From: Clostridia bacterium
GTDB lineage: Bacteria > Bacillota_A > Clostridia > Christensenellales > Aristaeellaceae
Length of the DNA: 46,783 nt
Direction of reading: 5' to 3'
NCBI GenBank assembly: GCA_017509065.1
Contig: JAFWQM010000211.1
Coordinates: 1-46,783, forward strand
This document shows positions 4,389 through 44,772 of the stretch, one piece after another; the stretch's first letter is position 1; each line of letters starts with the position of its first letter. Made by a program: the position numbers and the translations under genes. Below the pieces are notes generated by a model. It was given only the letters and a program-made list of their open reading frames with translations. It had not been told where the DNA came from and did no database searches.

Positions 4389-5060
4389 TCAGCGGTGCGC
4401 GGCGCGAAGCTGGAGCACGTAAAAGAAGCTGGACAGCCTGTTCAGCGCAAGCACAATATCCTCCCTGCTGACCTTCTGCCCGTCCCAGAATGCCTGAACG
4501 GCGGCAAGCTCCGTTTCGCGCGTCAATGCTCGCAGGCGGTTCAGCTGCGCGGCAAGAAGCCCGTGCTCCTTTGACGGCAGGATGTGGCCCGGAAAGCCGA
4601 ATTCCTGTGGATGGTGGGAGCACCGATGCACCTCTTCCGCGTCCATGCCGTCCAGCTTCCAAACGGGCACCGGCGTGTCCCGCACTTCGGAAGCCAGCAC
4701 CACGCGCGTAAGCGTCAAAGCGTCCTCCAGTGGAGCACGCCATTCAGGCCTGCAGGAGCATTGGAGCACCAAGATCTCGCTTTCCAGCGTGTCCAGCTTG
4801 CCCCGCAGCAGGATGCGCGGATGGTTTTTGCATACCATCTCATGGGCGTTCAGGTTGGTCATGTGCTCCGGCTTGCGTCCGCTGACGGATGGCGTCACAC
4901 TCTGCCGCCGCGCGCGTGTATCGGGATGTTTATACAGTTTGAGATCCAGCAGGTATTGCCGCGCGGCAGGGGTCAGCTGAGCGCCGGGCGGAATCTCATA
5001 CTGTTCCGGAATGCCAGACGCAAACTGATCCCGTAGCTCGCGTTCGGTAATAAATCGCAT
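4389..5060 (-). CDS. eutT: EutT-type corrinoid adenosyltransferase
   Basis: A 223-residue ATP:cob(I)alamin adenosyltransferase supplying adenosylcobalamin to EutBC. It begins with MRFITERELRDQF and LTPAARQYLLDLKL, the EutT/EutQ N-terminal signature. It continues with MTNLNAHEMV, LDTLESEILVLQ, EVHRCSHHPQEFGFPGH and ALNRLSSFFYVLQL, all matching EutT landmarks. The HX11CCX2C metal motif known between the N-terminal segment and the core of Salmonella EutT is absent; only a short Cys-free linker is found there. A CSC pair occurs later. The enzyme may therefore use another route to four-coordinate the corrinoid. It lies between the hexamer shell genes and pduL. Confidence 0.88.
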   Translation of the reverse strand: MRFITERELRDQFASGIPEQYEIPPGAQLTPAARQYLLDLKLYKHPDTRARRQSVTPSVSGRKPEHMTNLNAHEMVCKNHPRILLRGKLDTLESEILVLQCSCRPEWRAPLEDALTLTRVVLASEVRDTPVPVWKLDGMDAEEVHRCSHHPQEFGFPGHILPSKEHGLLAAQLNRLRALTRETELAAVQAFWDGQKVSREDIVLALNRLSSFFYVLQLRAAHR

Positions 5061-7299: not shown

Positions 7300-7489
7300 C
7301 TGACTCAGATAAACAGGAGGCGTTTTCTGGGGGAAACCGCTCTTTGGTGGCCAAAGATTGCCTTCCCCTCGCAGGGGAAGGTGGCGCGAAGCGCCGGATG
7401 AGGTCTATCCCCCAGACCCCCTTCCGAGAAAGCTATAATTAGAGTTCAGACTTTTTACATATCACGAAATTTCTCGCTCATAAGGACTT
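7300..7489. repeat. palindromic intergenic repeat, copy D, interrupted
   Basis: The left arm (7326-7347) and the first seven bases of the right arm (CCAAAGA, 7351-7357) match the family. The right arm then resumes at 7408 (TCCCCCAGA) after about 50 foreign bases that replace GCGGTT. The tail GACCCCCTTCCGAGAAAGC follows, then a degenerate copy of the tail hairpin (CGAAATTTCTCG). It sits between the extended shell gene and eutE. Confidence 0.85.
7358..7407. repeat. small double-hairpin element nested in repeat copy D
   Basis: Two adjacent hairpins: CCTTCCCCT/AGGGGAAGG (7361-7369 with 7373-7381, loop CGC) and GGCGC/GCGCC (7383-7387 with 7391-7395, loop GAA), followed by GGATGAGG. This is unlike the host palindrome, and it breaks that palindrome's right arm, so it was inserted or substituted later. 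Only this copy occurs in the window. Confidence 0.75.
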
Positions 7490-8071
7490 AATGTATTCTG
7501 CCAGGGCCGAAAGCAGCTGGGCTTTATTGGCATAGCGGATTTCTCCCGCCTTCATGGAGAAACCGGGCAGCTTCCGCGCGAAGCTCCGAAGAGCTACCAC
7601 TTTCCAAGTTTTCAGCTCTTCCAAGGACGGCATAGCGCTGTCGGGCTGTTGCTTGTTTTCCGCCTTTTCTTCAGTCTGCTTTTCTTTTCTTTCCGTAGCC
7701 GATGCCTCCCGACAGCGCCTCAATTCGCGCATCCCGCCTTCACATCCGCCGCAAGCCGCGCAGCCGCCCTGACTGCGCTTGCCTGGCCCCACGCCGGGGT
7801 CGCTGGCCAGCATGCAGAATACCTCCGGCATGGCGCGGGGAATCACATGGGAACTCACGACCACGCCCACGCGCTGGGCCGCCATGGTCCCGGCGTCCAC
7901 CGCCGCCTGCACCGCCGCCACATCGCCTTCAAAGCGCACCATCACCAGGCCACCGCGCACGTAATCCGTGCCCAGCAGCCGAACGTTGGCCGCTTTCAAT
8001 CCGGCGTCCGCCGCCTCAATGGCGGACAGCAGGCCGCTGGTTTCGATCATGCCCAAAGCGGTTATCTCCAT
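7478..8071 (-). CDS. extended BMC-H shell protein with C-terminal SAP/Rho-N-like domain (EutK-like)
   Basis: A 197-residue protein. Residues 1-90 form a BMC domain (ALGMIETSGLLSAIEAADAG, RGGLVMVRFEGDVAAVQAA, HVIPRAMPEV). Then comes a glycine/cysteine-rich stretch (GGCAACGGCEGG), a charged low-complexity linker, and a C-terminal module of about 45 residues (LKTWKVVALRSFARKLPGF, then ANKAQLLSALAEYIKSL). That module resembles small helix-extended-loop-helix folds such as SAP or Rho N-terminal domains. EutK of enterics also joins a BMC domain to a small putative nucleic-acid-binding domain, so the architecture is EutK-like though the domain is not obviously the same. The start at 8071 is set by AAAGGGAG upstream. 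Its partner is unknown. Confidence 0.85.
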   Translation of the reverse strand: MEITALGMIETSGLLSAIEAADAGLKAANVRLLGTDYVRGGLVMVRFEGDVAAVQAAVDAGTMAAQRVGVVVSSHVIPRAMPEVFCMLASDPGVGPGKRSQGGCAACGGCEGGMRELRRCREASATERKEKQTEEKAENKQQPDSAMPSLEELKTWKVVALRSFARKLPGFSMKAGEIRYANKAQLLSALAEYIKSL

Positions 8072-8096
8072 GCGCTGTCTCCCTTTCAATCAATTG

Positions 8097-9685: not shown

Positions 9686-11041
9686 TTATAGAAATACGGA
9701 AGCGTCGCCCGCGTTGGGGCCCAGCCGCCCATCCTGCCAGAAGCCCCATTTCTCCATCCATTTTTCAAAGGCGGGAATGGGCCGGAGGTTCATGGCCTCG
9801 CGGATGGCGGCGATGTCGTGATAGCCCGTGGACTGGTAATTCAGCATCACGTCGTCCCCGTGGGGCACGCCCATGAAATAATTGCAGCCCGCGGCGGCCA
9901 GCAGCAGCGCCAGGTTTTCGTTGTCGTACTGGTCGGCTCGCATATGGTTGGTGTAGCAGCAGTCGCAGCCCATGGGCAGGCCGTGGAGCTTGCCCATAAA
10001 ATGGTCCTCCAGGCCCGCCCGGATGAACTGCCTGTTGTCGTACAGGTACTCCGGCCCGATAAAGCCCACCACCGTATTCACCAGGAACGGCTTAAAATGC
10101 CGGGCAAAGCCGTAGCAGCGGGCTTCCATGGTCACCTGATCCCAGCCGTTGTGCGCGTCGGAGGACAATTCGCTTCCTTGCCCCGTCTCAAAATACAGCT
10201 GGTTGGGGCCGTGGGACGTCCCTTCCCGGGCCATCAGGTCCCGGGCTTCCGCGATCATGACGTTATTGATGCCGAAAGCCGCGTTCCCTTTTTCCGAACC
10301 GGCAATGCTCTGGAAAATCAAATCACAGGGCGCGCCCTGACGCACCGCTTCCATGCCTGTGGTCACGTGGGCCAGCACGCAAATTTGCGTAGGGATCATG
10401 TACTTTTCCTTGAGCTCGGCAAAGCGGTTAAGAATCGCTTTCACGCTTTCGGTGGAGGCGTCCACGGGATTGAGGCCGATCACAGCGTCGCCCACGCCGA
10501 AGGTCAGCCCTTCCAAGGTGGAGGCGGTGATTCCTTCCAAATCGTCGGTGGGATGGTTGGGCTGGAGCCGTGCTGACAGCGTGCCTTCCTCTCCAATGGT
10601 GGTGACGCAGGTCGCCGTCACGCGCATTTTTTTCGCCGCGTAAACGAGATCCAGGTTGCTCATCAGCTTGCAAACCGCCGCGATGACCTCGCTGGACAGC
10701 CCCCGCCGCATCACTTCGATTTCCTCCGGCGGACAGGCCAGGATACGCTCCCGAAGCGCGCCGATGGGCATATCCTGATATTGGCGGTAGATGCGCGTAT
10801 TCAGATCGTCCAGGATCAGGCGGGTCACTTCGTCCTTTTCATAAGGCACAGCCGGATGCTCGCAAATTTCCCGCACCGTCAGATGGCTCAGCACCACTCT
10901 GGCCGCCACGCGCTCCTGGGGCGTTTCCGCCGCGACACCGGCCAGCCGGTCGCCGGACTTTTCGTCGTTGGCCTTTCCCATCACCTCACGCACGTCGTGA
11001 AAGCTGTAGGAATGGCCGCCCAATGTCACGCTGAGCCGCAT
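9686..11041 (-). CDS. eutB: ethanolamine ammonia-lyase large subunit
   Basis: A 451-residue catalytic subunit, full length compared with enteric EutB (about 453). The start MRLSVTLGGHSYSFHDVREV at 11041 is chosen over a longer frame because GGGAGGT lies 6 bases upstream, inside the end of eutA. Conserved parts include ANDEKSGDRLAGVAA, LNPVDASTESV, FQSIAGSEKGNAAFGIN, YFETGQGSELSSDAHNG, and the C-terminal YFMGVPHGDDVMLNYQSTG. It requires adenosylcobalamin, supplied by EutT, and is reactivated by EutA. It begins 4 bases after the eutA stop. Confidence 0.97.
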   Translation of the reverse strand: MRLSVTLGGHSYSFHDVREVMGKANDEKSGDRLAGVAAETPQERVAARVVLSHLTVREICEHPAVPYEKDEVTRLILDDLNTRIYRQYQDMPIGALRERILACPPEEIEVMRRGLSSEVIAAVCKLMSNLDLVYAAKKMRVTATCVTTIGEEGTLSARLQPNHPTDDLEGITASTLEGLTFGVGDAVIGLNPVDASTESVKAILNRFAELKEKYMIPTQICVLAHVTTGMEAVRQGAPCDLIFQSIAGSEKGNAAFGINNVMIAEARDLMAREGTSHGPNQLYFETGQGSELSSDAHNGWDQVTMEARCYGFARHFKPFLVNTVVGFIGPEYLYDNRQFIRAGLEDHFMGKLHGLPMGCDCCYTNHMRADQYDNENLALLLAAAGCNYFMGVPHGDDVMLNYQSTGYHDIAAIREAMNLRPIPAFEKWMEKWGFWQDGRLGPNAGDASVFL

Positions 11042-11045
11042 CTCG

Positions 11046-12461
11046 TTACCTCCCCGCATCCTGAGAAAAAGCGAATGTTTTGATGATGACGGGCACGACC
11101 CTGCCGTCGCCCAGAGGTGCGCCGATATCCACCGTATCCCCATAGGCCAGTTCGATCCCGTCCAGGCAGAGAAACGATGTGCCCGCGGGCCACGCACGGG
11201 ACAGCGCCTGCCCCAGGGCTTTTGCCATATCCTCCCGCAGGATGACCACCTTGGGGTTATACGGCGCCATCGCGGCAGCGATTTCCCGCGCCGCCGCCGT
11301 GACCGTGCTCCAATCAGGCGACGCAATGCCCTGCATGTACACGGCGCACTCGCCGTCAAATATGCTGTACTGAGCCTCAATCGCCTGTCGGAGGCTGGCG
11401 ATATCCCTCTCCGTGGTAAGCGGAACCGTGCAGACGGGCAGGGATTTTAGGGGGAGCCGCATATCCCGGAACTGGATCGTGCTCCCGGATACCGCCACGC
11501 TGTACGCGCCCGCCCCAATCACCGTGGCATGGCTGGTCTCCGCAGGACGGAGCACGCGCTGATCCACAAAAAACCGGGAACGCGCCACTGCCCTTCCGAG
11601 CGTCTCGCCCAAATCGTAAAACCGGATGGAATCCCGCGCTGCCCCATAGATACAATCTGCCACGCCGCCGGAAAAAGTGAACAGCTCAGGTTTGATCCCT
11701 ACGGGAAGGCTGTGTTCTACCGTCAGCGTTTGATGCAAAGGTGTGCGCTCCCGCAGCCCGGCAGCCTCTTCCAGCACCTCCGCCATACGATCCGCCAGCC
11801 GGGTTTGTTGGGCTTCGTCCAGCGCTATCCCCTGCCGGAGCACGATGCCACAGTCAGCGGCGATTTTCTCCATGGCCGGGCTGTAGGAGAGCACCGTCCT
11901 TCCGTCCTCCTGAAAACGAAGCAGCCTCCCACCGATATCCAGGCAGCCTTCGCACACCGGCAGACCCTTTTCAAACAGAGCCATATTGGTGGTTCCGCCT
12001 CCGATGTCCAGGTTCAGAACGGATCGGCCTCTGCTTTCGGATAACTCGGCGGCTCCTGATCCGCGCCCGGCCAGAATCCCTTCCAGAGCAGGCCCTGCCG
12101 TCGCTACGACAAACTCTCCCGCCAGTTCGGACAGCGCCTGCGTTACCGCTCTTGCGTTGGCCTTGCGGGCAGTTTCTCCCGTAATGATGACCGCGCCCAG
12201 CCGGATATCGGCGGGGGAAATGCCTGCTTGCCGGTAGTCCTCACGAATCATGGATTCCAGCGCGGCGCTGTCGATGGTGTCTGCCTGGAGCAGCGGTGTC
12301 AGGCGAATGGGAGCACGGTAGAGCACGGCCTTTTCGGTGATCCGGATGCGCGGGACGGAGAACGCGGAAGCAGTGTTACTGAGGGTCAGGCGACTGAAAA
12401 CGCACTGCGTCGTAGACGTGCCGATGTCGATCCCCACGCTCAGCAGCTGCTCCTCCCGCAT
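11046..12461 (-). CDS. eutA: ethanolamine ammonia-lyase reactivating factor
   Basis: A 471-residue EutA, an actin/Hsp70-fold ATPase that releases damaged cobalamin from EutBC. ATPase landmarks are GIDIGTSTTQ near the N-terminus and LDIGGGTTNMALFEKG in the middle; ETARKANARAV and ATAGPALEGILAGRGSG are further family segments. The start at 12461 has AAGGAG 6 bases upstream; a longer reading would begin with TTG at 12482 and swallow the ribosome site. It is the first gene of the operon, about 60 bases downstream of a SigA-type promoter. Confidence 0.95.
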   Translation of the reverse strand: MREEQLLSVGIDIGTSTTQCVFSRLTLSNTASAFSVPRIRITEKAVLYRAPIRLTPLLQADTIDSAALESMIREDYRQAGISPADIRLGAVIITGETARKANARAVTQALSELAGEFVVATAGPALEGILAGRGSGAAELSESRGRSVLNLDIGGGTTNMALFEKGLPVCEGCLDIGGRLLRFQEDGRTVLSYSPAMEKIAADCGIVLRQGIALDEAQQTRLADRMAEVLEEAAGLRERTPLHQTLTVEHSLPVGIKPELFTFSGGVADCIYGAARDSIRFYDLGETLGRAVARSRFFVDQRVLRPAETSHATVIGAGAYSVAVSGSTIQFRDMRLPLKSLPVCTVPLTTERDIASLRQAIEAQYSIFDGECAVYMQGIASPDWSTVTAAAREIAAAMAPYNPKVVILREDMAKALGQALSRAWPAGTSFLCLDGIELAYGDTVDIGAPLGDGRVVPVIIKTFAFSQDAGR

Positions 12462-12529
12462 TGCGATCTCCTTCCCCCGCAATCTCCGAAAGACCCGTAT
12501 ATAAACAGAATGAAAACTTCTTCGATATT

Positions 12530-12559
12530 ATTCTATCACATGCAGTGCTCCCGTGTCAA
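12530..12559 (-). promoter_or_regulatory. SigA-type promoter of the eut operon
   Basis: TTGACA (12554-12559, minus) and TAGAAT (12530-12535) are separated by 18 bases. Transcription should start near 12523, giving an untranslated leader of about 60 bases before eutA. No EutV-type tandem hairpin antiterminator or cobalamin riboswitch fits in that leader. The divergent promoter for the plus-strand cassette lies about 40 bases away, so the two may be co-regulated. Confidence 0.75.
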
Positions 12560-12595: not shown

Positions 12596-12624
12596 TTGAC
12601 AGCAAATAGGGCATATATTATAAT
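12596..12624 (+). promoter_or_regulatory. consensus SigA promoter of the cobalamin cassette
   Basis: Perfect TTGACA (12596-12601), a 17-base spacer and perfect TATAAT (12619-12624). Transcription should begin near 12631. The TTG in the -35 box opens a longer in-frame reading of the next gene, but it cannot be a start because it precedes the transcript. Confidence 0.88.
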
Positions 12625-12667
12625 ATCAGTCACAAAGGTCTGCATAACGGAAAGGGGGGAACGCGCT

Positions 12668-13291
12668 ATTCAACCTTCCTGTGATTCTGCTTATCACCTG
12701 GATTCAGTGGAAGAGCACCTGAAAGACGCGCTGCTGCACGGGGATCGCGTCGCTGTCGCGGCCCTGCTGAAAAGCCATGATCCTGAGGCTTTGATCCGGC
12801 AGAAAAATGCCCTCCTGGAGGACCTGACAAACCGTTACCTGTCCGGTGCTCTTCCTTTTTGCCAACTGACCGCGGTGGCACATGCCGCTTGTGCTTTTCC
12901 CAATAGCTCCCTTCCTCCCGTCGCCTGCTGCGGCGCGGCGGCGGGTAACACCAGCGCGGCCGGGAGGGACTATACGCTGATGCTCCTTGCTGCATGGGGG
13001 ATTCCCACGCTGGATCTGGGCGTCGATGTATCTCCTGAAGCCTTTCTTGCAACAATCGCCGAAAACAGCCTGCAATATGCTGTCTGTGTGATCTTCACAG
13101 CAGCGGACGCCGAATGCGCGCTTCAGATGCACACCCTCGCCGAAGCGCGGGGCATACGGAAGCGCTTCCGCCTGGTGGTCTGCGGGATGAGTGAATCGGA
13201 AGACGCGGCATTGCGCAGCTTGCCCGCGGACTTTTTAACGCGCCGTTCCGCCGCGGCGGCGCAATGGGTGATGAACTCATGGAAAAAATAA
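12668..13291 (+). CDS. cobalamin-binding-fold protein next to the eut operon
   Basis: About 207 residues. The N-terminal half is helical (VEEHLKDALLHGDRVAVAAL, LLEDLTNRYLSGALPF) like the cap of corrinoid methyltransferase proteins. The C-terminal half follows a B12-binding Rossmann pattern (LLAAWGIPTLDLGVDVSPEAFLATI, then YAVCVIFTAADAECALQMHTL, then FRLVVCGM). The DxHxxG loop that places the lower-axial histidine is missing: the equivalent stretch is CCGAAAGNTSAAGRDY. It may bind a corrinoid base-on, bind another ligand, or have lost binding. The start is uncertain. The only strong ribosome site (AAAGGGGGG, 12651-12659) leads to a rare ATT codon at 12668; GTG at 12707 fits the family start but lacks a good site. 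It is divergent from eutA and followed by a MetH-activation-like gene. Confidence 0.7.
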   Translation: MQPSCDSAYHLDSVEEHLKDALLHGDRVAVAALLKSHDPEALIRQKNALLEDLTNRYLSGALPFCQLTAVAHAACAFPNSSLPPVACCGAAAGNTSAAGRDYTLMLLAAWGIPTLDLGVDVSPEAFLATIAENSLQYAVCVIFTAADAECALQMHTLAEARGIRKRFRLVVCGMSESEDAALRSLPADFLTRRSAAAAQWVMNSWKK

Positions 13292-13884
13292 CCGTTTATT
13301 CCGGGGAGCATTTCCCCATTCAGCCGGACAAGGCAGAGGTATTCCGCTGGCTTCAATGCGGCGTGGAGCTTCCCTGTCACACGGCTTATGAATCCGCCTG
13401 GGATCAGGCCGTACTCATGCTCCGGCAGACCGCCGCACCCCAGGCAGCTGTCCTTCGGGAAGGAATGGAGCGCCTGACCATCCTGCTGACACTGGGAAGC
13501 CGGGCCGAATCGCTGGCGTCCCGCCTCTTTCAGCGGCAGGAATACATCACCGGCAGTCTGCTGAACGTGCTCTGTGATGAGCTGCTCTTTCAGATGGATC
13601 ACCGCGCTTCCGTGCTCCTACAGCGCGATCTGGCGGAAGAAGGGCTCTCCATGACTGAACGCGCGGAACCCGGAGCGGGTCTTTCCGTCGCGGAGCAGCG
13701 GAATTGCCTTTTACAGATGGAACGCGTGATGCCCGATGTGCGCATTTCGGAGTACGGAATGATCTCCCCCGCGAAATCCATGATGTACCGGGTGACGCTC
13801 TCGCGTCAGGAATGCGGCAACGTGCTCCTGCACGATTGCGCCAACTGCCCGCAAAAAGAATGCCTGTATCGAAGCATCAAGTAA
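13279..13884 (+). CDS. MetH-activation-domain-like protein
   Basis: About 201 residues resembling the reactivation (SAM-binding) domain of cobalamin-dependent methionine synthase. It has LTLGSRAESLASRLFQRQEY, LLNVLCDELLFQMD, a degenerate RAEPGAGLSVAEQ in place of the usual RFSPGYGD segment, and SPAKSMMYRVTL at the position of the PxKSV strand. The C-terminus carries a cysteine group (CGNVLLHDCANCPQKEC) that could bind a metal or Fe-S cluster. The start is ATG at 13279, overlapping the preceding stop; 13264 is an alternative. It pairs with the cobalamin-fold protein. Reactivation or redox handling of the eut corrinoid is a hypothesis. A canonical relative lies at 44116-44772. Confidence 0.68.
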   Translation: MEKITVYSGEHFPIQPDKAEVFRWLQCGVELPCHTAYESAWDQAVLMLRQTAAPQAAVLREGMERLTILLTLGSRAESLASRLFQRQEYITGSLLNVLCDELLFQMDHRASVLLQRDLAEEGLSMTERAEPGAGLSVAEQRNCLLQMERVMPDVRISEYGMISPAKSMMYRVTLSRQECGNVLLHDCANCPQKECLYRSIK

Positions 13885-13899
13885 AACAACCCCATACCC

Positions 13900-13934
13900 A
13901 ACAAAAAAAGCCGCTGCAAACGGCTTTTTTTGTT
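13900..13934. terminator. bidirectional intrinsic terminator
   Basis: An A-rich arm, GCCG (13910-13913), 7-base loop, CGGC (13921-13924) and a T-run form a stem that works in both directions. It separates the convergent cobalamin cassette and ABC transporter operon. Confidence 0.9.
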
Positions 13935-13958
13935 GTATTATATTCCTTACGCGCTGTA

Positions 13959-14969
13959 TTACAGCCCAATCACCAGATCCCGCTTGATGGCAGCGAACAC
14001 CCGGTCGCCGTCGCTGAAATCCATGCGGTTTTCAAACACCACGTCGGCGTTCATCTGGAGGCCGTCAAAATCAACCGAGAAGCGTACCAGATTGCCGTGG
14101 GAAATATGTCCGGAAATCACGCCCTCGGCGACCAGCAGTGTGTCCGTTTCCTGAATCGGCGTTTTGCTGAGGCTGACGATTTCGGGGCGCACCGCCACAT
14201 CCTCGCCCGGAATGTTCCCGCCAAAAACGTGGTTAAAGTCTGCTGCGCGGGGCAGGTTGTAGTTGCCGATAAAGGTGGCGGCGAACCGGGTGGCCGGGTG
14301 GGTATAGATCTGCTCCGGGGTGCCCGACTGCTCGATCTTTCCGTCGTGGAACAGGTGAATCATGTCGGACATGACCATGGCCTCGTCCTGGTCATGGGTG
14401 ACGAAAATCGTCGTGATGCCCAACTGCTGCTGAATACGGCGAATTTCAATCTGCAAATTTTTGCGCAGCAGCGCGTCGATGGCGCTGAGGGGTTCATCCA
14501 GCAGAAGCACCTTCGGCGCGGTCACCATGGCGCGGGCGAGGGCCACGCGCTGCTGCTGGCCGCCGGAAAGCTGCGCCGGATACTGGTGTATCTTTTCACT
14601 CAGGCCCACGATTTCCAGCATCCGTTCCACCTTCTGGCTGATCTCCGCCTTGGGCAGCTTTTTCAGCTTCAAGCCGTAGGCCACATTGTCGCGCACGTTC
14701 ATGTTGGGGAAAAGGGAATATTGCTGGAACACCATGCCGATGCCGCGGCGGCGGGGGATGACATTGGTGATTTCCTGCCCGTCCAGATAAATATGGCCAT
14801 CCGTCACCTGCTCCAGGCCTGCCAGACAGCGCAAAAGCGTGGATTTACCGCAGCCGGAGGGGCCGAGCAGGGTCACCAGCTGTCCCTGTTCCACTTCCAG
14901 GTCAATATCCTTGAGGACGTGGTTCGTGCCGAATACTTTATTGATCTTTTCAAAGCGGATATAGGACAT
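13959..14969 (-). CDS. ABC transporter ATP-binding protein (PotA/PhnT/FbpC type)
   Basis: A 336-residue importer ATPase. Walker A is GPSGCGKST (about residues 36-44), then the Q-loop MVFQQYSLFP, the signature LSGGQQQR, Walker B VLLLDEP and the H-loop VTHDQDEA. A C-terminal TOBE-like region (about 240-336) is typical of the iron/spermidine/aminoethylphosphonate group. It is the last gene of a minus-strand operon and follows the inner permease by 3 bases. The sequence alone does not set the substrate. Confidence 0.93.
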   Translation of the reverse strand: MSYIRFEKINKVFGTNHVLKDIDLEVEQGQLVTLLGPSGCGKSTLLRCLAGLEQVTDGHIYLDGQEITNVIPRRRGIGMVFQQYSLFPNMNVRDNVAYGLKLKKLPKAEISQKVERMLEIVGLSEKIHQYPAQLSGGQQQRVALARAMVTAPKVLLLDEPLSAIDALLRKNLQIEIRRIQQQLGITTIFVTHDQDEAMVMSDMIHLFHDGKIEQSGTPEQIYTHPATRFAATFIGNYNLPRAADFNHVFGGNIPGEDVAVRPEIVSLSKTPIQETDTLLVAEGVISGHISHGNLVRFSVDFDGLQMNADVVFENRMDFSDGDRVFAAIKRDLVIGL

Positions 14970-14972
14970 GGC

Positions 14973-15785
14973 TCATTTTCCCCCGTTTCTGATTTTCTCG
15001 AGCGCGCTTCTGTTCTGCAGAATCAGCACGATGGCGGTGATGGTGAAGGTGATCAGCATGATGACCACGAACACCGCGGAGGATTCCGTGCTGGACCGCT
15101 TCATCGCCTGGTAAAGGAATTTCTGCATGTTGTTCACATTGGAGCTGGACAGGTTGCGGATGATGACGTAATCGCCGAACAGCAGGCCCACGGCCAGGAG
15201 GCTGGAAACCGTGATGCCGGTGATGATGTTGGGCACGATCACCTTGAAGAACGCTTTCAGCTTGCTGTCACCCAGCATCTCAGCCGCTTCCAGCAGGGTG
15301 TTCATTTTGATGGCGCGCATGCCGTTTCGGATACCGTTGTAGATGTGGGGCAGGATGATGATGCAGTACGCGCCGATCAGCATGACCATGCGCTCGCCCA
15401 GCACGCCGCCGCCCTTGGCGTACAGGCTCAGGATCGAAACAGACAGGATGACGCCCTGGATGGTATAGGGAATCATGCACAGCAGCTGCACATACTTTTC
15501 CAGTTTCGGAAAATACACCGTCACCGCGAACAGCGCCAGCAGCATCATTAAAATAGTGATGACGATGGGCACCGCGCACACGATCACCGTTTGGTACATG
15601 GAGGTCAGGAAAGCGGGATCAGAAAAAATCTTCTGATAATTCGCCAGGGTAAACCCGTGGGGCACAATGCCCGTCCAATCCTCAAAAAGCGAATAAATAA
15701 TGGTCGCCAGCAGGGGAATGATCAGCCAGACGATAACGATTGCCATGACGATATTCGCCGACGCTTTTCCTTTTTTCATGTGCAA
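14973..15785 (-). CDS. ABC transporter permease, second subunit
   Basis: A 270-residue inner-membrane permease of the PotC/PhnV-like class. The first membrane helix is at about residues 10-32, and several more follow. The EAA loop that contacts the ATPase is visible as EAAEMLGDSKLKAFFKVIVP. It ends next to the first permease gene with no gap, suggesting translational coupling. The substrate is not known. Confidence 0.92.
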   Translation of the reverse strand: MHMKKGKASANIVMAIVIVWLIIPLLATIIYSLFEDWTGIVPHGFTLANYQKIFSDPAFLTSMYQTVIVCAVPIVITILMMLLALFAVTVYFPKLEKYVQLLCMIPYTIQGVILSVSILSLYAKGGGVLGERMVMLIGAYCIIILPHIYNGIRNGMRAIKMNTLLEAAEMLGDSKLKAFFKVIVPNIITGITVSSLLAVGLLFGDYVIIRNLSSSNVNNMQKFLYQAMKRSSTESSAVFVVIMLITFTITAIVLILQNRSALEKIRNGGK

Positions 15786-16670
15786 TCACCTGCTTTCCCA
15801 TTTGGTCAGCTTCCGCGTGATATAGTTGTTGATCAGGATCACGACGCACATGATCAGCATCATCACCACGGAAAGCGCCGCGCCGAGCTTCGGCTTGGTC
15901 CGGATATCGCCGACGAAGGACGCGGAAATATTGATCGGCAGCAGGGAGAAATTGTTCATCAGCAGCGCGTAGGCCGTCGCGTAGGCGCACAGGGCGTTGG
16001 CGAACAGCACGCTGATGGTGGAAAACAGGCTGGGCAGCAGCACCGGAACGCCCACGTGCATCCAGAAATGGGTATTGGTTCCGCCCAGCAGCATATTGGC
16101 TTCGTTCCACTCCTGACGGATGCCGTTGAACGCCGGAATCAGCAGCAGCGTGGACAGCGGAATCTGGAAATAAATATACATCATCGTAAGGCCGCTGCTG
16201 GTATACAGGTCGAAGTTCTGGATGAATTCAATGCCGTAGGTGCTGGCGATTTGCTTGAGCACACCGGCGTTGCCCAGGATGATCATATAGGCGAAGGCCA
16301 GGGGAACGCCCGCGAAATTGGAGGTCATGTTGAGCACGGTCAAAAAAACGTTGCGGAATTTGCCCCGCGAAGTATGCGCAGCCCGTGCGCCGAGAAACGC
16401 GATCACGATGCCGAAGGCCGTGGAGATCGCCGTGATTTTCAAGCTGTTCAGAATGGCTTTCGTGTAGCTGAGGGTGGTAAATATTTTGGTATAGTTGTCA
16501 AAGGTAAAGCGCACGCTGGGGTCCTTATCGAGGCCAAAGCTGTCCACCGCCAGCATGATCAGCGGCAGCAGCTCATAGAGGAGCACCACCAAAAGAAAGG
16601 GGAGCAGCGCCAGCAGATAGATGTATTTACTGTTTGAGCAGCCTGCCCGTTTTGATTTTTGCAGTTCCAT
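15786..16670 (-). CDS. ABC transporter permease, first subunit
   Basis: A 294-residue permease of the PotB/PhnU-like class, with an N-terminal helix (YLLALLPFLLVVLLYELLPL) and an EAA loop around NEANMLLGGTNTHFWMHVGVP. The start MELQKSKRAG at 16670 is chosen because GGAGAG lies about 7 bases upstream. Longer starts at 16685 or 16727 would run into repeat copy E. It is separated from the binding-protein gene by that repeat and a terminator, so it is likely expressed at a lower level. Confidence 0.9.
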   Translation of the reverse strand: MELQKSKRAGCSNSKYIYLLALLPFLLVVLLYELLPLIMLAVDSFGLDKDPSVRFTFDNYTKIFTTLSYTKAILNSLKITAISTAFGIVIAFLGARAAHTSRGKFRNVFLTVLNMTSNFAGVPLAFAYMIILGNAGVLKQIASTYGIEFIQNFDLYTSSGLTMMYIYFQIPLSTLLLIPAFNGIRQEWNEANMLLGGTNTHFWMHVGVPVLLPSLFSTISVLFANALCAYATAYALLMNNFSLLPINISASFVGDIRTKPKLGAALSVVMMLIMCVVILINNYITRKLTKWESR

Positions 16671-16687
16671 AGGTTTTCTCTCCATCC

Positions 16688-16831
16688 TAACCTGAATAAA
16701 ACGGAAAAGTTTTCTGGGGGAAACCATTCTTTGGAGGCCAAAGAATGGTTTCCCCCAGACCCCCTTCCAAGAAAGCCAGAAGGGGTTCTGGACTTTTTGC
16801 CATTTTGCGAAAACTTTAACTTATAAGTGCC
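16688..16831. repeat. palindromic intergenic repeat, copy E
   Basis: The core at 16713-16759 has perfect 22-base arms around AGG. The flank CCTAACCTGAATAAAACGG, the tail GACCCCCTTCCAAGAAAGCC and the distal ACTTTTTGCCATTTTGCGAA match copy A almost throughout. This defines a full element of about 145 bases. It lies between the binding-protein and permease genes. Confidence 0.92.
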
Positions 16832-16833
16832 CT

Positions 16834-16869
16834 AAAAAACCGGGGGCGCACTTTTTGGAGTACGCCCCC
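16834..16869 (-). terminator. intrinsic terminator between binding protein and permeases
   Basis: On the minus strand GGGGGCG (16863-16869) pairs with CGCCCCC (16842-16848) and is followed by GG and six T. It lies directly after the binding-protein stop. Partial read-through would give more binding protein than permease, a common arrangement. Confidence 0.85.
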
Positions 16870-16893
16870 TCAGGCAATCAGAGAATCAAAGCA

Positions 16894-17955
16894 TCAATCC
16901 AGCAGCGGGATAATGTTCTCAGCCCACCATTCGGAGATTTCGGCGCAGACTTCAGCGTACTGGGCGGCGTCGGAGATGCCGACAGCATTGGCGTAGGTCG
17001 CGGGATCGAAGGTGTTGGCAATGATGTCGGCGGGGATTTCCACGTTGGTGCGGGTAGGAACAGCGCCGGACTTGGCCAGGTTGATCTGCCCGGCGTCGGA
17101 GAAGATATACTCGCGGGCCAGGGCGGCGGCGAAGGGCGTGTCGCTGTTCTTGCTGATGACGCTGGCATAGCCCACCAGGATCGCGCCGTCAGAGGGAATG
17201 CCCACGGTGATGTTGTAGTTGGGGGTTTCGTCGCGGTAGGTCAGCACGTTGTAGCTCCAGCTTACGCCGCACTCTACTTCACCGGCCTGGATGCGGGCCA
17301 GCAGGATGTCGCCCTTGTCGATGCGGCCGGCCTTGGCCATCTCGGTCCAGAAGTCGAAAGCGGGCTGCAGGTTATCCAGGCCGCCGCCGAAAGCGAAAGC
17401 GGTAGCGACCACAACGCCCTGGCCGGTCGCGCCGCCCACCACGTCGCCGATGGTCAGCTTGTAGGTGCCCTCACGGACATCCTGCCAGCTGGTGGGCATC
17501 TTCTGGCCGTTCGCCAGATCGTTGTTGAAGATGAAGCTGGTGCAGCCGGTATAGGCGATCATCCATTTGCCGTCCTCGCCCTTGGCCCAGTCGGGAACGC
17601 TGTCCCAATAGCTGGTCTTGTAGCCCTGCACCAGGTCGGCATCGATGGCTTGCTGAGTGAAGGCCAGGCCCACGTCGCCGATGTCGCGGGTGCTGTCGTT
17701 GGCGAACATGTTCAGCTCTTCAGCGCTGCTCATATCGTCGTCGGTATGGGCAATGCCGTAGGTTTCGGTCAGACCCTTCCAGCTGTCGCCCCAGTTGGCC
17801 CAGCTGTCCGGCATGCCGACGGATTCCACGTGGCCTTCTTCTTTGGCCTTTTCAATGATCTCATCCAGCGTATAGCTGTTCAGATCGGCAGCCATCGCGC
17901 TGCACACGGTCAGCAGCATGGCAAGCGCCAGGAATACGGATACAAGTTTCTTCAT
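16894..17955 (-). CDS. ABC transporter extracellular solute-binding protein
   Basis: A 353-residue secreted binding protein. The signal peptide is MKKLVSVFLALAMLLTVCSA with AMA/ADL as likely cleavage; the cysteine near its end could also make it a lipoprotein. The mature part is a two-lobe type (SPNN.. absent; TGCTSFIFNNDLANGQKMP, WQDVREGTYKLTIGD, VPTRTNVEIPADI) seen in iron, polyamine and aminoethylphosphonate importers. The start at 17955 has GGAGGA 6-8 bases upstream. The neighbouring microcompartment operon raises the idea of an ethanolamine-related substrate, without direct evidence. Confidence 0.9.
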   Translation of the reverse strand: MKKLVSVFLALAMLLTVCSAMAADLNSYTLDEIIEKAKEEGHVESVGMPDSWANWGDSWKGLTETYGIAHTDDDMSSAEELNMFANDSTRDIGDVGLAFTQQAIDADLVQGYKTSYWDSVPDWAKGEDGKWMIAYTGCTSFIFNNDLANGQKMPTSWQDVREGTYKLTIGDVVGGATGQGVVVATAFAFGGGLDNLQPAFDFWTEMAKAGRIDKGDILLARIQAGEVECGVSWSYNVLTYRDETPNYNITVGIPSDGAILVGYASVISKNSDTPFAAALAREYIFSDAGQINLAKSGAVPTRTNVEIPADIIANTFDPATYANAVGISDAAQYAEVCAEISEWWAENIIPLLD

Positions 17956-17980
17956 GTTTTTTCCTCCTGCTTTTTTGTTT

Positions 17981-17997
17981 CCACATATACGATGTGG
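17981..17997. promoter_or_regulatory. leader dyad CCACAT-5-ATGTGG
   Basis: A perfect 6+6 inverted repeat lies between the promoter and the ribosome site of the binding-protein gene. It could be an operator or a small leader hairpin. Only one copy is seen. Confidence 0.4.
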
Positions 17998-18012
17998 CTT
18001 TTTCTGTATCAT

Positions 18013-18041
18013 ATTATACAGCATGGAACCCAAAAAGTCAA
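18013..18041 (-). promoter_or_regulatory. SigA-type promoter of the ABC transporter operon
   Basis: TTGACT (18036-18041), a 17-base spacer, and TATAAT (18013-18018) on the minus strand, about 60 bases before the binding-protein start. Confidence 0.85.
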
Positions 18042-18104: not shown

Positions 18105-19070
18105 TTATACTGTTTTTTTGTGCTGAAGCCAAATCTGCCAGGACAGGGAAAACAGCGCATACAGGGCAATCGTGATCAATGCGATACTGATGAGGTCATG
18201 CTCCAAAAAGAAACTCGGCGTATGGATGCCTTTGATCAGGAAATGCGCAATGACGTAAGACACAGGGGCAAAGAACAATTGACGAAGAATCCAGCTGTAA
18301 TCCCATTTTCTGAAAACCACCCAGGCCAGGCCGCATAACACTGCCAATGCCGCAGCGATCATCAAGTAATACGACAGCGCCAGGCGCGGAAGGATTTCTG
18401 CCCCGCCGTTCAGAGGGGTTCCCCACAGCAGTTTCTGCGGCTGTTCAAATCCATAGATCAGTCGATCAGGCACAGGATAGTAGGTCAGTTCGTAATATGA
18501 CTGTGCCTGACGACCGGAGCCTTGATTCGTGCTGACTGCCTGCATGACGACGGTTGTTGTGCCGTCATCCTCAACAATCACATGTTCATGGAACCCGTTG
18601 ATAATACTGCTTACATTCAAAATCAGCGCTTCACCGGTATATTCATCAGAAGCAGGGACTGCTGTCGGCGTGGGTTCAGCTTCATCGGCTTCTGAAAAAA
18701 GTCCATCGGCGGCCTCCCCATCCGCAGGATGGATGGTTTCGACGCGGGATACTTCAATCAGGCCTTCCTGCCATGGGACAAATTTCATGCTCGCAGCATG
18801 ACAGAAGTATGTATACAGTCCGACAAAAACAATCAAAGCAGCAAGAATGGCAGCATACCAACGGCGCTTTCGTATTTGCCTCTTCAAAGCCATGAGCGGT
18901 TTTTCGGATTCGACGGGAGAAACGGTTTTTGTTTCAATTTCAGCCAGTTTCTGACGGCATTCCGCGCATCCTTCCAGATGTTCTTCAACCATTTTTGTCG
19001 TTTCGTCTTCCGTAATCTTCTCCGCATACAGGGGAAGAAGATCTCTGACAACAGCGCAAGGCAGTTTCAT
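18105..19070 (-). CDS. anti-sigma factor with zinc-finger and membrane segments
   Basis: A 321-residue membrane protein. The N-terminal zf-HC2-type segment (about residues 1-45) has CAVVRDLLPLYAEKI and VEEHLEGCAECRQKL, an HxxxCxxC zinc site that holds the sigma factor. A first membrane helix (AAILAALIVFVGLYTYF) follows, then an extracytoplasmic domain (about 95-215), and further helices near the C-terminus (YYLMIAAALAVLCGLAWVVF and two more). The start at 19070 overlaps the sigma stop by 4 bases; a longer frame lacks support. It presumably restrains the ECF sigma encoded upstream until an envelope signal arrives. Confidence 0.88.
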   Translation of the reverse strand: MKLPCAVVRDLLPLYAEKITEDETTKMVEEHLEGCAECRQKLAEIETKTVSPVESEKPLMALKRQIRKRRWYAAILAALIVFVGLYTYFCHAASMKFVPWQEGLIEVSRVETIHPADGEAADGLFSEADEAEPTPTAVPASDEYTGEALILNVSSIINGFHEHVIVEDDGTTTVVMQAVSTNQGSGRQAQSYYELTYYPVPDRLIYGFEQPQKLLWGTPLNGGAEILPRLALSYYLMIAAALAVLCGLAWVVFRKWDYSWILRQLFFAPVSYVIAHFLIKGIHTPSFFLEHDLISIALITIALYALFSLSWQIWLQHKKTV

Positions 19071-19558
19071 GGCTGCACCTCCATTTCTTCTTTGATCCTG
19101 GCACGGGCACGGTGATAAACCACGCAGGCCCAATTCTCAGATTTGCCGAACAGTTCCCCAATGTCCCGGAAACTAAGCTGTCCCAAAGTCCGTAAGGTGA
19201 AAACCTCCCTGTATGGCTCATCCAGACGGTGAAGCAGCCGATAGATGCGCATGCTTTCATCCTGACGCATGATGGATTCTTCCGGGCCTATGGCGGGATC
19301 GGGAAGAATCGCTGCCTCGTCAATTGGCTGCGCCTTTTTCTTCCGCCGCTCAGAGAGCCATAGATTTCTGGCAATCGCGCACAGCCAGCTTTTCAAACTG
19401 CTGTCTCCGCGAAACTGATCCAATGATCGCAGCGCTTTGAAAAAGGTTTCCTGGGTGATTTCTTGGGCGGCATGGGGATCCCGTGAAAGGGAGAGCGCAT
19501 AACGATATACCGGGTCAAAGTAAGTTTGATAGATCTGATCAAACGAATTGCTTTCCAT
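19067..19558 (-). CDS. ECF-type RNA polymerase sigma factor
   Basis: A 163-residue sigma-70 family extracytoplasmic-function factor. Region 2 is seen in FDPVYRYALSLSRDPHAAQEITQETF and the WLCAIARNLW segment; region 4 in REVFTLRTLGQLSFRDIGELF and SENWACVVYHRARAR. The start at 19558 has AAAGGAGGG upstream, so the longer reading from 19579 is rejected. It is co-transcribed with its anti-sigma factor. Confidence 0.93.
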   Translation of the reverse strand: MESNSFDQIYQTYFDPVYRYALSLSRDPHAAQEITQETFFKALRSLDQFRGDSSLKSWLCAIARNLWLSERRKKKAQPIDEAAILPDPAIGPEESIMRQDESMRIYRLLHRLDEPYREVFTLRTLGQLSFRDIGELFGKSENWACVVYHRARARIKEEMEVQP

Positions 19559-19586
19559 CGGTTTGCTCCCTCCTTTCACTCTGTTT

Positions 19587-41771: not shown

Positions 41772-44126
41772 TTATTTGTCGAAAATGATTTTGGCGATGC
41801 CCACGGCGGCGCGGGCGTCCTTGGCGTAGTAATCCGCGCCGACGGATGTTGCCCAGCTTTCCGTCACCACGGCCCCGCCCACCACCACGGCGGGGGGATT
41901 GTCCATGCGGCGCAATTGAGCGATAGTTTCCTCCATGGCGGGGAGGGTGGTGGTCATGAGGGCGGAGAGACCCACCAGCGGGGCATTGTATTCTTTTGTG
42001 GCCTGCACCACCGTTTCCGGCGGCACGTCCTTGCCCAGGTCAATGACCGTGTAGCCGTAGTTTTCCAACACGGTTTTCACGATGTTTTTGCCGATGTCGT
42101 GAATGTCGCCCTGGACGGTGGCAATGACGATTTTGCCCTTGCTGACGGTTTCCGCGCCGGTGTTTGCCAAAGCGGTTTTGATTTCCTCGAACACCGCCTG
42201 CGCCGCCTGGGCAGCGGAAAGCAGCTGCGGCAGGAACACCACGCCTTTTTCGTAGTCCGTGCCCACTTTATCCAGCGCGGGAATCAAATGCTGTTCCACC
42301 AGGGAAAGCGGCGCTTCCGTTTTCAGCGCTTCCTTTGCGATTCGTCCTGCTTCGGTTTTCAGGCCCCGCAGGATGGCGTCGTCCAGGGTCATGGTAAAGG
42401 CGGCGGATACCGGCTTTGCTTCCGGCTGGGCGTTGGTGAAGCGGGCTACGTATGCCTTGCTCTGCTCGTCCTCACCGTTCAGCACCCGGTACGCGGCGAT
42501 AGCGTCCATGATCTCCCGTTGGTTCGGGTTCACGATTGGCAGGGTCAGGCCCGCGTGCAGAGCACGAATTAAAAAGGTCTGCGTCATGAGGAGGCGGTTG
42601 GGCAGGCCAAAGGAAATGTTGCTGACGCCGAGAACGGTTTGCAGGTCCAGCCGATTCCGCACCATGGAAATGGCTTTGAGCGTTTCCTCCGCCTGCTCCT
42701 GCTGGGCGGACACGGTGAGGGTGAGGCAGTCGATCCACACGTCCTCCTTGGGAATGCCCAGGGAAAGCGCGCGGTTCAGGATCTTTTCTGCGATGGCGAA
42801 GCGCTTCTCGGCGGAGTCGGGGATGCCGCTTTCATCCAGCGTCAGACCCACCACCGCCGCGCCGTACTTCTTCACCAGCGGCAGCACGGTGGAAAGGGAT
42901 TCTTCCTTGCCGTTCACGGAGTTCACTGCCGCCTTGCCGTTGTATACACGGAGCGCAGCTTCCAGCGCGGCGGGATTGGCGGAGTCCAGTTGCAGCGGCA
43001 CATCCACCGCCGCCTGCAAAGCCTTGACCACGCGCGGCAGCATGGCCACTTCATCCACGCCGGGGAAGCCCACGTTCACGTCCAGGATCTCCGCGCCCGC
43101 GTCGATCTGCTGAATCGCCACGTCCACAATGTAGTCCAGGTCATTTTCCAGCAGCGCCTGCTGGAAGCGTTTCTTGCCCGTGGGGTTGATGCGCTCGCCG
43201 ATCACCCGCACACGGTCAATGGGCAGGGTAACGGTAGGCGTACAGACCAGGCTTCGGGGTTCGTATCCGCCCGAAACACGCTTGTTTTCTGTAAGAATTC
43301 GCTTTAATGCGGTGATATAATCCGGTCCGGTGCCGCAGCAGCCGCCCACGATGTCCGCGCCCGCCTGAATAATCAGCGCCATGGCGGAGGCGAAGTCAGC
43401 GGGGGAGAGGTCATAGTGTCCGTCGGTCGGGTCGGGCAGGCCCGCGTTGGGCTTGGCGATGACCGGCAAAGAAGTGTTTCTTCGCAGTTCCTTGAGCAGC
43501 GGCAGCAGTTCCACCGGCCCCAAGGAACAGTTGATGCCGATGGCGTCCGCGCCAAGGCCCTCCAGAGTGTGGGCCATGGCGGCGACGGTGCAGCCGGTGA
43601 AGGTGCGGCCTGTGGCGTCAAAGCTCATGGTGACGAACACGGGCAGGTTCGTATGTTCCTTCGCCGCCAACAGAGCCGCCTTGGTTTCGTACAGGTCGGT
43701 CATGGTTTCGATGGCTACCAGATCAGCCCCCGCCGCTTCGCCCGCCTCCATCATTTCGGCGAACTGGTCATAGGCGTCTTCGAAGGTCAAGGTCCCCAGA
43801 GGTTCCAACAGCTCGCCCAGCGGTCCGATGTCCAGGCCCACCAGCGCTTTATCCCCGGCTTCTTTCTTCGCCAGGCGCACGCCTGCGGCGATCACTTCCG
43901 AAACAGAACGGCCTGTCTTTTGCAGCTTGCGGCGGTTGGCCCCGAAGGTGTTGGCGTACACCGCCTGACTGCCCGCCGCGATATACCCCCGGTGCACGGC
44001 GGCGATCATTTCGGGGTTTTCCAGGTTTTTCAGCTCCGGGATCTCGCCGGGCCTGAGGCCGCTCTTTTGCAGCATCGTGCCCATGGCCCCGTCCAATAGA
44101 ACGATCCTGGTAATATCAAAAGCCAC
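41772..44126 (-). CDS. metH: cobalamin-dependent methionine synthase lacking the activation domain
   Basis: A 784-residue MetH. The domains are the homocysteine-binding domain (about 1-285) with zinc cysteines in GINCSLGP and GGCCGTGPDY; the folate-binding domain (about 300-560) with VIGERINPTGKKRFQQAL and ILDVNVGFPGVDE; the cap (about 570-660); and the B12 domain with VQGDIHDIGKNIVKTVLENY, a complete DxHxxG motif, and IDLGKDVPPETVV. The fourth, SAM-binding reactivation domain is encoded separately just upstream, overlapping by 11 bases. It methylates homocysteine with methyl-tetrahydrofolate from MetF. Confidence 0.97.
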   Translation of the reverse strand: MAFDITRIVLLDGAMGTMLQKSGLRPGEIPELKNLENPEMIAAVHRGYIAAGSQAVYANTFGANRRKLQKTGRSVSEVIAAGVRLAKKEAGDKALVGLDIGPLGELLEPLGTLTFEDAYDQFAEMMEAGEAAGADLVAIETMTDLYETKAALLAAKEHTNLPVFVTMSFDATGRTFTGCTVAAMAHTLEGLGADAIGINCSLGPVELLPLLKELRRNTSLPVIAKPNAGLPDPTDGHYDLSPADFASAMALIIQAGADIVGGCCGTGPDYITALKRILTENKRVSGGYEPRSLVCTPTVTLPIDRVRVIGERINPTGKKRFQQALLENDLDYIVDVAIQQIDAGAEILDVNVGFPGVDEVAMLPRVVKALQAAVDVPLQLDSANPAALEAALRVYNGKAAVNSVNGKEESLSTVLPLVKKYGAAVVGLTLDESGIPDSAEKRFAIAEKILNRALSLGIPKEDVWIDCLTLTVSAQQEQAEETLKAISMVRNRLDLQTVLGVSNISFGLPNRLLMTQTFLIRALHAGLTLPIVNPNQREIMDAIAAYRVLNGEDEQSKAYVARFTNAQPEAKPVSAAFTMTLDDAILRGLKTEAGRIAKEALKTEAPLSLVEQHLIPALDKVGTDYEKGVVFLPQLLSAAQAAQAVFEEIKTALANTGAETVSKGKIVIATVQGDIHDIGKNIVKTVLENYGYTVIDLGKDVPPETVVQATKEYNAPLVGLSALMTTTLPAMEETIAQLRRMDNPPAVVVGGAVVTESWATSVGADYYAKDARAAVGIAKIIFDK

Positions 44127-44772
44127 AGTTTGTTCCCCTTTCCCGATATGCGCAGGTTCCTTTCAAGGCGCAATACCCGCAGCCCCGAATCCTCGCGGGC
44201 TGGGGCGTTTCCGATAAGCCGATGATGGCGGTGACGGACTTGGCGGGCAGCATGAGGCAGGTATCCGTCAGCGTCACGCCCAGGCGTTTTTCCGCGTTCA
44301 GCGCGTTCAGTAAATCCGGCTGGACAGACAGCGGCAAATCGCCGTAGCCGGGACTGAACCGGTCGGTGAGATAAGAATGCGGATACCGCGCTGCAATTTC
44401 TTTTTCCACTTCTTCGCAGCCCGCCTCAACATACGCGCTGCCGCAGGCGTTCAGCATGGCCGCCTTCGCCATGTCCCGGGCCTGGGCCATACGGAGCAGC
44501 CGGTCAAACTCCGCGCCTAAGGTACAGCAGAGCAGCGCGGCCTGACCGCAGGATTGCAGCATCCGTCCGGCCAGTTTCCCCGGCAATGACAGTCCTGCCT
44601 CCGGCAGCGATACGCCGCAAGCCGTCTGTTCCACGGTGAAGATTTTGTATACATACCGCGGAACCAGCCGCGCTTCCAATTCGCGCGCCGTCGATTCCAC
44701 GGCGGAAGCGGTTTCTCTGTCGGCATTCGCCGCGCTCAAATAGCGCAAGGCCTCTGAAACATCAATTTTCAT
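44116..44772 (-). CDS. separate MetH reactivation-domain protein
   Basis: A 218-residue stand-alone relative of the MetH activation domain, which reductively methylates inactive cob(II)alamin with SAM. Family segments are CCTLGAEFDRLLRMAQARDM, LNACGSAYVEAGCEEVEKEI, RFSPGYGDLPLSVQPDLLNAL (SAM-binding) and LMLPAKSVTAIIGL. The C-terminus carries CGYCALKGTCAYR, a cysteine set found in clostridial versions. The start MKIDVSEALRYL at 44772 overlaps the metF stop by 4 bases. It lies in a metF-activator-metH operon. Confidence 0.92.
   Translation of the reverse strand: MKIDVSEALRYLSAANADRETASAVESTARELEARLVPRYVYKIFTVEQTACGVSLPEAGLSLPGKLAGRMLQSCGQAALLCCTLGAEFDRLLRMAQARDMAKAAMLNACGSAYVEAGCEEVEKEIAARYPHSYLTDRFSPGYGDLPLSVQPDLLNALNAEKRLGVTLTDTCLMLPAKSVTAIIGLSETPQPARIRGCGYCALKGTCAYRERGTNCGF

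Follow-up and report, generated by a model that had tools for sequence, protein, structure and literature searches.

A degenerate corrinoid-fold and MetH-activation-fold gene pair divergent from an ethanolamine utilisation operon in Clostridia

We examined a 46,783-nucleotide stretch of DNA from a Clostridia bacterium (hereafter the window; contig JAFWQM010000211.1, assembly GCA_017509065.1), in which two overlapping open reading frames (ORFs) on the + strand, gene A and gene B, lie beside the ethanolamine utilisation (eut) operon. As proposed by a first-pass annotation made from the letters of the window, the two form a coupled pair transcribed away from eutA (11046–12482, − strand; PF06277, E 3e-152); on their other side an ATP-binding cassette (ABC) transporter converges on them. 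Gene A (12668–13291, +) encodes a degenerate corrinoid-binding-fold protein in 207 codons, counted from an ATT, plus a stop. Gene B (13264–13884, +) encodes a MetH-activation-fold protein and overlaps A, starting at ATG 13264 or ATG 13279. In all ten loci compared, A directly precedes B. The pair has a sigma-70-type promoter, a perfect TTGACA-17-TATAAT that matches 12 of 12 consensus bases (12596–12624, +). Exact boxes at a spacing of 17 or 18 are found upstream of A in 9/10 loci, and L032 matches 11 of the 12 bases. A terminator-like hairpin (13899–13935, reported on the + strand) separates B from the transporter.

The first-pass annotation had begun the feature at 12596. We rejected the TTG there as the start of A, since 12596 is the first base of the promoter's −35 box. 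Several A homologues begin with methionine at the residue encoded by ATT 12668, and a Shine-Dalgarno-like AAAGGGGGG (12651–12659, +) lies 8 bases 5' of this codon. Because both point to the same site, A likely starts at ATT 12668, a rare start codon. ATT is also found at the equivalent site in L001, while L002 has GTG one codon earlier.

To place the pair among other genomes, we combined several searches. Protein searches gave 35 relatives of B and 27 of A, the window's own included, and a B profile search gave 57 proteins, among which there was no bridge to canonical activators. The two B relatives bearing a source name are annotated as hypothetical protein, and among the papers listed in literature searches no title or abstract opening described such a pair. 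A contig scan of species genomes, an undercount that missed members found later, yielded five loci, all in metagenome-assembled genomes (Clostridia, Clostridiales, Christensenella sp.), two of which name rumen samples. Within one family of 308 genomes, with the best ten or fewer candidates scored per genome, B was present in 9 and EutB in 14. EutB accompanies B in eight of these nine genomes; G005 is the exception, with B adjoining eutA at a contig end (Fisher p 1.4e-11 for the association, uncorrected for kinship). The pair adjoins eutA in 7/9 of these genomes (G001, G004, G005, G016, G142, G159, G184), as it does in the window. G003 has it beside the ABC transporter, with eut on another contig, and G002 beside an amidohydrolase-like gene. 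The neighbourhood survey thus did not refute the proposed link: homologues whose genomes could be inspected fall in eut genomes in 9/9 cases, and none stands by a methyltransferase gene of the URO-D or MTTB type. The pair is carried next to ethanolamine genes in some gut and rumen Clostridia.

Two further draws used the B profile at 1e-5. In the family draw 8/200 genomes matched, two of them weakly and without EutB. In the order-wide draw 10/396 matched, with G001 as the sole true member. Seven of the nine other, weaker matches are canonical-looking activators, at least five of which were read as lying by metH- or MTHFR-like genes. The remaining two are N-terminal domains of RACo-type activators beside URO-D-like genes.

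A narrow distribution such as this could mean that the pair belongs to a lineage and merely travels by eut without a functional link, and relatedness inflates the association. We consider this improbable, however, as the two genomes in which the pair is unlinked from eut still retain eut, and among the 294 genomes without an EutB match B occurs only in G005, where it is beside eutA.

In order to define the residues that the pair has kept and lost, we aligned A and B using MAFFT with the MetH of the window, the corrinoid protein of L050 and nine canonical activators. The A set comprises 34 proteins (the window, nine loci and 24 database proteins), some of them partial, and the B set 62, proteins shorter than 190 aa being left out; in both sets locus and database entries may duplicate the same gene. 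P0041 (extended reading frame), P0001 and P0036 (both identical to the window) were dropped from the counts, as was P0059, in which A is joined to an XdhC-like part and which looks like an assembly chimera.

The predicted structure of A combines a helix bundle with a Rossmann fold of the B12-binding type, and among solved structures A comes closest to corrinoid proteins of methyltransferase systems. A Pfam scan of A gave just a weak, sub-threshold PF02310 match. The window protein reads NTSAAG in place of DxHxxG, its loop beginning N94, T95, S96. As the first-pass annotation had claimed, the axial histidine of this motif is gone: it is found in 0/34 A proteins, replaced by Ser in 29, Gly in 2 and Cys, Leu or Ile in one each. 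The Asp of the motif is Asn in 34/34, and its Gly is retained in 33/34. Similarly, the Ser of SxL is absent from every member (Val 29, Thr 2, Ala 2, Met 1) and its Leu is Phe in 34/34. The first Gly of the GG motif is also lost in all 34 (Cys in 27), the second retained in all 34. At the equivalent positions CobDH has His102 as the ligand, Asp100 as the partner of this His, and Ser147, which bonds the nucleotide base (PMC3727330). Radical SAM enzymes include Rossmann cobalamin sites without a histidine (PMC13331322); the loss of His in A is therefore compatible with cobalamin binding.

Alternatively, the ligand of A may be heme or a small molecule, or A may have no ligand; the pair would then serve as a protein scaffold or as an ethanolamine or redox sensor built on a B12 fold, in the manner of the heme-binding SCHIC domain of AppA. 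The combined loss of the axial His, the Ser of SxL and the first Gly of GG would fit such a change, and SCHIC domains are a case in which this fold has turned to heme (PMC9144470). However, the N-x-S-x-x-G loop of A offers no His as heme ligand, and the eut context is itself cobalamin-dependent. We regard this alternative as unlikely.

The predicted structure of B is the MetH activation-domain fold, so that prediction returned the expected fold for both proteins. Pfam did not recognise B as such: PF02965 matched 0/32 of the family members put through the scan, with E values up to 1 admitted, and the window protein (206 aa) has no Pfam match at E up to 1, ferredoxin and ASKHA domains being absent. 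We take Glu1097, Arg1134 and Tyr1139 of E. coli MetH to be residues of the S-adenosylmethionine (SAM) site; their assignment to columns rests on the alignment. The Glu1097-equivalent is Phe in 62/62 B proteins and Glu in 9/9 canonical activators, and the Tyr1139-equivalent is likewise lost in 62/62 and retained in 9/9. Arg1134, by comparison, has its equivalent in 59/62 B proteins and 9/9 canonical activators, and PxKS is retained in 62/62. Thus, a MetH-activation-like protein with a degenerate SAM site, as initially described, is what we found. In contrast, the C-terminal cysteine group of B, initially described as new, is ancestral: three cysteines occur in 62/62 B proteins and in 9/9 canonical stand-alone activators. 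A new cysteine or iron site on B was accordingly rejected, iron binding also having no support. A canonical stand-alone activation protein is indeed present in the window (44116–44772, − strand; PF02965, E 7e-8), next to a 784-aa metH without a PF02965 match and a gene that reads as MTHFR-like; metH and activator together occupy 41772–44772.

Purifying selection acts on both genes, with ratios of nonsynonymous to synonymous substitution rates of 0.21–0.33 for A and 0.18–0.35 for B (six locus pairs per gene). Because the replacements are largely uniform and under selection in both partners, they favour reuse over decay. That A has lost its axial-His loop and B its SAM site in concert supports the earlier view that the pair is specialised.

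An active, divergent methyltransferase corrinoid protein with its activator would need a methyltransferase elsewhere in the genome. Fold, ancestry and the nearest solved relatives of A suit this explanation, and URO-D (PF01208) matches exist in 6/9 pair genomes, all on contigs other than the pair's. However, axial His is gone in 34/34 and the SAM-site Glu and Tyr in 62/62, and the pair is linked to eut. URO-D is absent from 3/9 pair genomes and MTTB (PF06253) from 9/9, these being drafts in which absence is soft. The pair's neighbours in the window are eut and ABC transporter genes, and by reading the ORF lists of L002–L005 show no methyltransferase beside the pair, in line with the first-pass annotation. 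We judge an active methyltransferase pair very improbable.

Taken together, the predicted folds, the gene overlap, selection, the concerted residue changes and the eut linkage are the basis for our reading of the pair. A would descend from a corrinoid protein and B from an activation protein of the MetH type, and both would have given up His-on methyl transfer and SAM-dependent reductive methylation. That they are a eut-dedicated pair, dead for methyl transfer, is in our view highly probable. A and B would form a 1:1 complex that holds cobalamin between the Rossmann face of A and the activation face of B, with constitutive expression from the pair's own consensus promoter. Its output, in the version we somewhat favour, would be co-regulation of the divergent eut operon through a DNA-binding partner; alternatively, the complex would act as an escort handing cobalamin to EutT and EutBC together with EutA. 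The mechanism as a whole, in which A:B holds cobalamin and reports or supplies it to eut, is a proposal that we advance tentatively and place a little on the doubtful side. This is in keeping with the first suggestion that the pair could sense or service the corrinoid of EutBC and EutT, or regulate.

Either a cobalamin sensor or an escort would suit the B12 and activation folds, the presence of the pair in eut genomes and its consensus promoter, which faces that of eut. As an escort only, A:B would be a cobalamin chaperone or store, passing cob(II)alamin or adenosylcobalamin (AdoCbl) between EutT, EutA and EutBC with no part in regulation. The pair adjoins eutA in most of its genomes, and EutT is found in the eut operons that reach far enough. 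Additionally, the two outside B relatives, in L049 and L050, each form the N-terminal domain of a RACo-type activator that ends in an ASKHA ATPase, and EutA matches FtsA and BcrAD_BadFG weakly, below threshold, so that B with EutA may resemble a split RACo-type architecture. On the other hand, the pair is divergent and separately promoted, and 6/14 EutB genomes do without B. The escort is possible, though we think it rather less than probable. Because of the divergent arrangement we lean slightly, with low confidence, towards sensing. The pair might then be a protein-based sensor of cobalamin status for ethanolamine utilisation, providing the AdoCbl input in place of EutR or of the EutX riboswitch, a specific role that we put forward as a speculative one.

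We compared these loci with EutB genomes that lack B (G051, G092, G119, G148, G601 and G660). In G092 and G660 eutA is immediately preceded by genes for an ANTAR response regulator and a histidine kinase, which appear EutVW-like, an assignment tested by Pfam in G660 and, for the G092 kinase, made by reading. In G051, G119, G148 and G601 the ABC transporter is divergent from eutA, and the position immediately upstream of eutA holds no pair and no EutVW. As four of the six pair-less genomes have no EutVW upstream of eutA, its lack alone is no argument for the pair. The same arrangement suggests that the transporter is probably the older eut neighbour; the pair lies between transporter and eutA in most pair genomes having both on one contig. 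No cobalamin riboswitch was detected by Rfam at gathering cut-offs in the window or in 15 loci, pair-less ones included. EutVW and EutR had been called absent from the window, which holds for the roughly 20 window proteins scanned, none with an ANTAR or AraC-type domain. Neither EutVW nor a riboswitch was seen in pair loci, the AraC-type EutR not having been searched genome-wide. ANTAR proteins do occur in 6/9 pair genomes, and by reading the neighbour is a glutamate-synthase-like gene in the ANTAR loci L063, L064, L067 and L068 and a glutamine-synthetase-like one in L065. Mutual exclusion of EutVW and the pair was not adopted, since EutVW in 2/6 pair-less EutB genomes against no pair locus seen is too few.

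Several observations weigh against the proposed mechanism; against sensing in particular count the missing DNA-binding domain, the eut operons that do without the pair and the two unlinked cases. The pair is dispensable for eut, as the six EutB genomes without B attest, and it lies away from eut in 2/9 genomes (G002 and G003). Pair-less eut loci also lack a riboswitch. No DNA-binding domain was found in A or B (neither ANTAR nor AraC-type by Pfam), and therefore regulation needs an unseen partner. Nearly all of the base-off/His-on determinants checked are altered, so corrinoid binding by A is putative. Divergent orientation speaks against a maturation factor for the operon's enzyme, and the strong promoter somewhat against a regulator. 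Lastly, a URO-D gene elsewhere in 6/9 pair genomes might supply a distant methyltransferase partner.

We also looked for shared control elements. The eut operon promoter (12530–12559, − strand) is TTGACA-18-TAGAAT with GAGCAC in the spacer (GTGCTC on the + strand at 12545). TTGACA-N1-4-GAGCAC occurs in the eut promoter of 8/10 pair-bearing genomes (the window, L001, L004, L029, L030, L031, and L047 and L048, the eut loci of G002 and G003), the exceptions being L005 (ACGCAC) and L032. Upstream of eutA it occurs in 0/6 pair-less EutB loci (L042, L043, L044, L046, L081 and L082), the check covering, in L082, where EutVW precedes eutA, the 108 bases before eutA. For 8/10 against 0/4, Fisher p is 0.015. 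We nevertheless rejected GAGCAC as a shared operator, since the eut loci of the pair-bearing genomes are also closer relatives and the motif is common anyway (background of GAGCAC/GTGCTC about 0.5–2.3 per kb); the spacer may reflect an operator or shared descent. A stricter pattern recovered three eutA promoters only across 13 genomes and missed known cases, and we therefore make no regulon claim. In G002, whose pair is not at the eut locus, a CdaR/PucR-type regulator gene (L047:3501–4694) precedes eutA, and a similar-looking gene lies near EutVW in L082. The G002 regulator was rejected, close orthologues being found in just two other pair genomes, G016 and G184, the G184 copy with one stop.

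The remaining neighbours complete the locus. On the − strand lie eutB, for the large subunit of ethanolamine ammonia-lyase (9686–11068, start approximate), and an EutT-like cobalamin adenosyltransferase (4389–5060; PF01923, E 2e-15). A bacterial microcompartment shell-like protein with a C-terminal extension (7478–8089), whose first half aligns with EutM-type shells, has extended counterparts in the compared eut operons reaching that far. The ABC transporter (13959–18022, − strand, far end approximate) consists of an ATPase, two permeases and an SBP_bac_6 binding protein. It lies upstream of the eut operon, with a GDPD-family phosphodiesterase downstream (231–980); in L046 a GDPD gene is likewise beside the transporter. 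Together these could serve glycerophosphoethanolamine uptake and cleavage. The genes adjoining the transporter on the same strand (18105–19579) are one for a sigma factor with Sigma70 regions 2 and 4 and one of anti-sigma-like type with zf-HC2.

If our reading is right, a corrinoid pair once used for methyl transfer has lost that chemistry and become tied to enzymes that depend on AdoCbl. The pair would be a testable candidate for the B12 input in eut operons without EutVW or a nearby cobalamin riboswitch. As a natural pair lacking both His and SAM site, it would show what the corrinoid/activator interface can do alone.

Compared with known systems, A departs most clearly from the methyltransferase corrinoid proteins. 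MttC, MtaC and CobDH (4jgi) carry DxHxxG, whereas the A family has N-x-(mostly S)-x-x-G; where the former have SxL and GG, A proteins have mostly VxF and mostly CG, and no URO-D or MTTB gene shares the pair's contig. Similarly, B differs from stand-alone MetH activation proteins (PF02965; TM0269, 1j6r; the one in the window) in lacking the Glu1097 and Tyr1139 equivalents and in not being beside metH in the loci seen. The RACo-type activators (RACE/RACo) of L049 and L050 share a B-like N-terminal domain with B but are fused to Fer2 and RACo ASKHA domains, neither of which B has. In the L050 activator (L050:1–2148) this domain ends in a similar three-Cys group. The A-profile match of L050, a corrinoid protein adjoined by what reads as a URO-D-like gene, has the intact DxHxxG that A has lost. 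AerR/PpaA co-regulators have in common with A a helix cap and a Rossmann B12 fold, and AerR regulates through a separate DNA-binding partner, CrtJ (PMC9144470). However, AerR has an axial His145 and A none, and no CrtJ-like partner was identified for A. Lastly, AdoCbl enters eut control in two known ways, through EutR directly or through EutVW by way of an AdoCbl riboswitch RNA (PMC5821096). A and B would fill the same biological slot, AdoCbl input to eut expression, but we found no sequence relation to either system. The pair thus appears to be a variant of known protein families with a putative function tied to ethanolamine utilisation.
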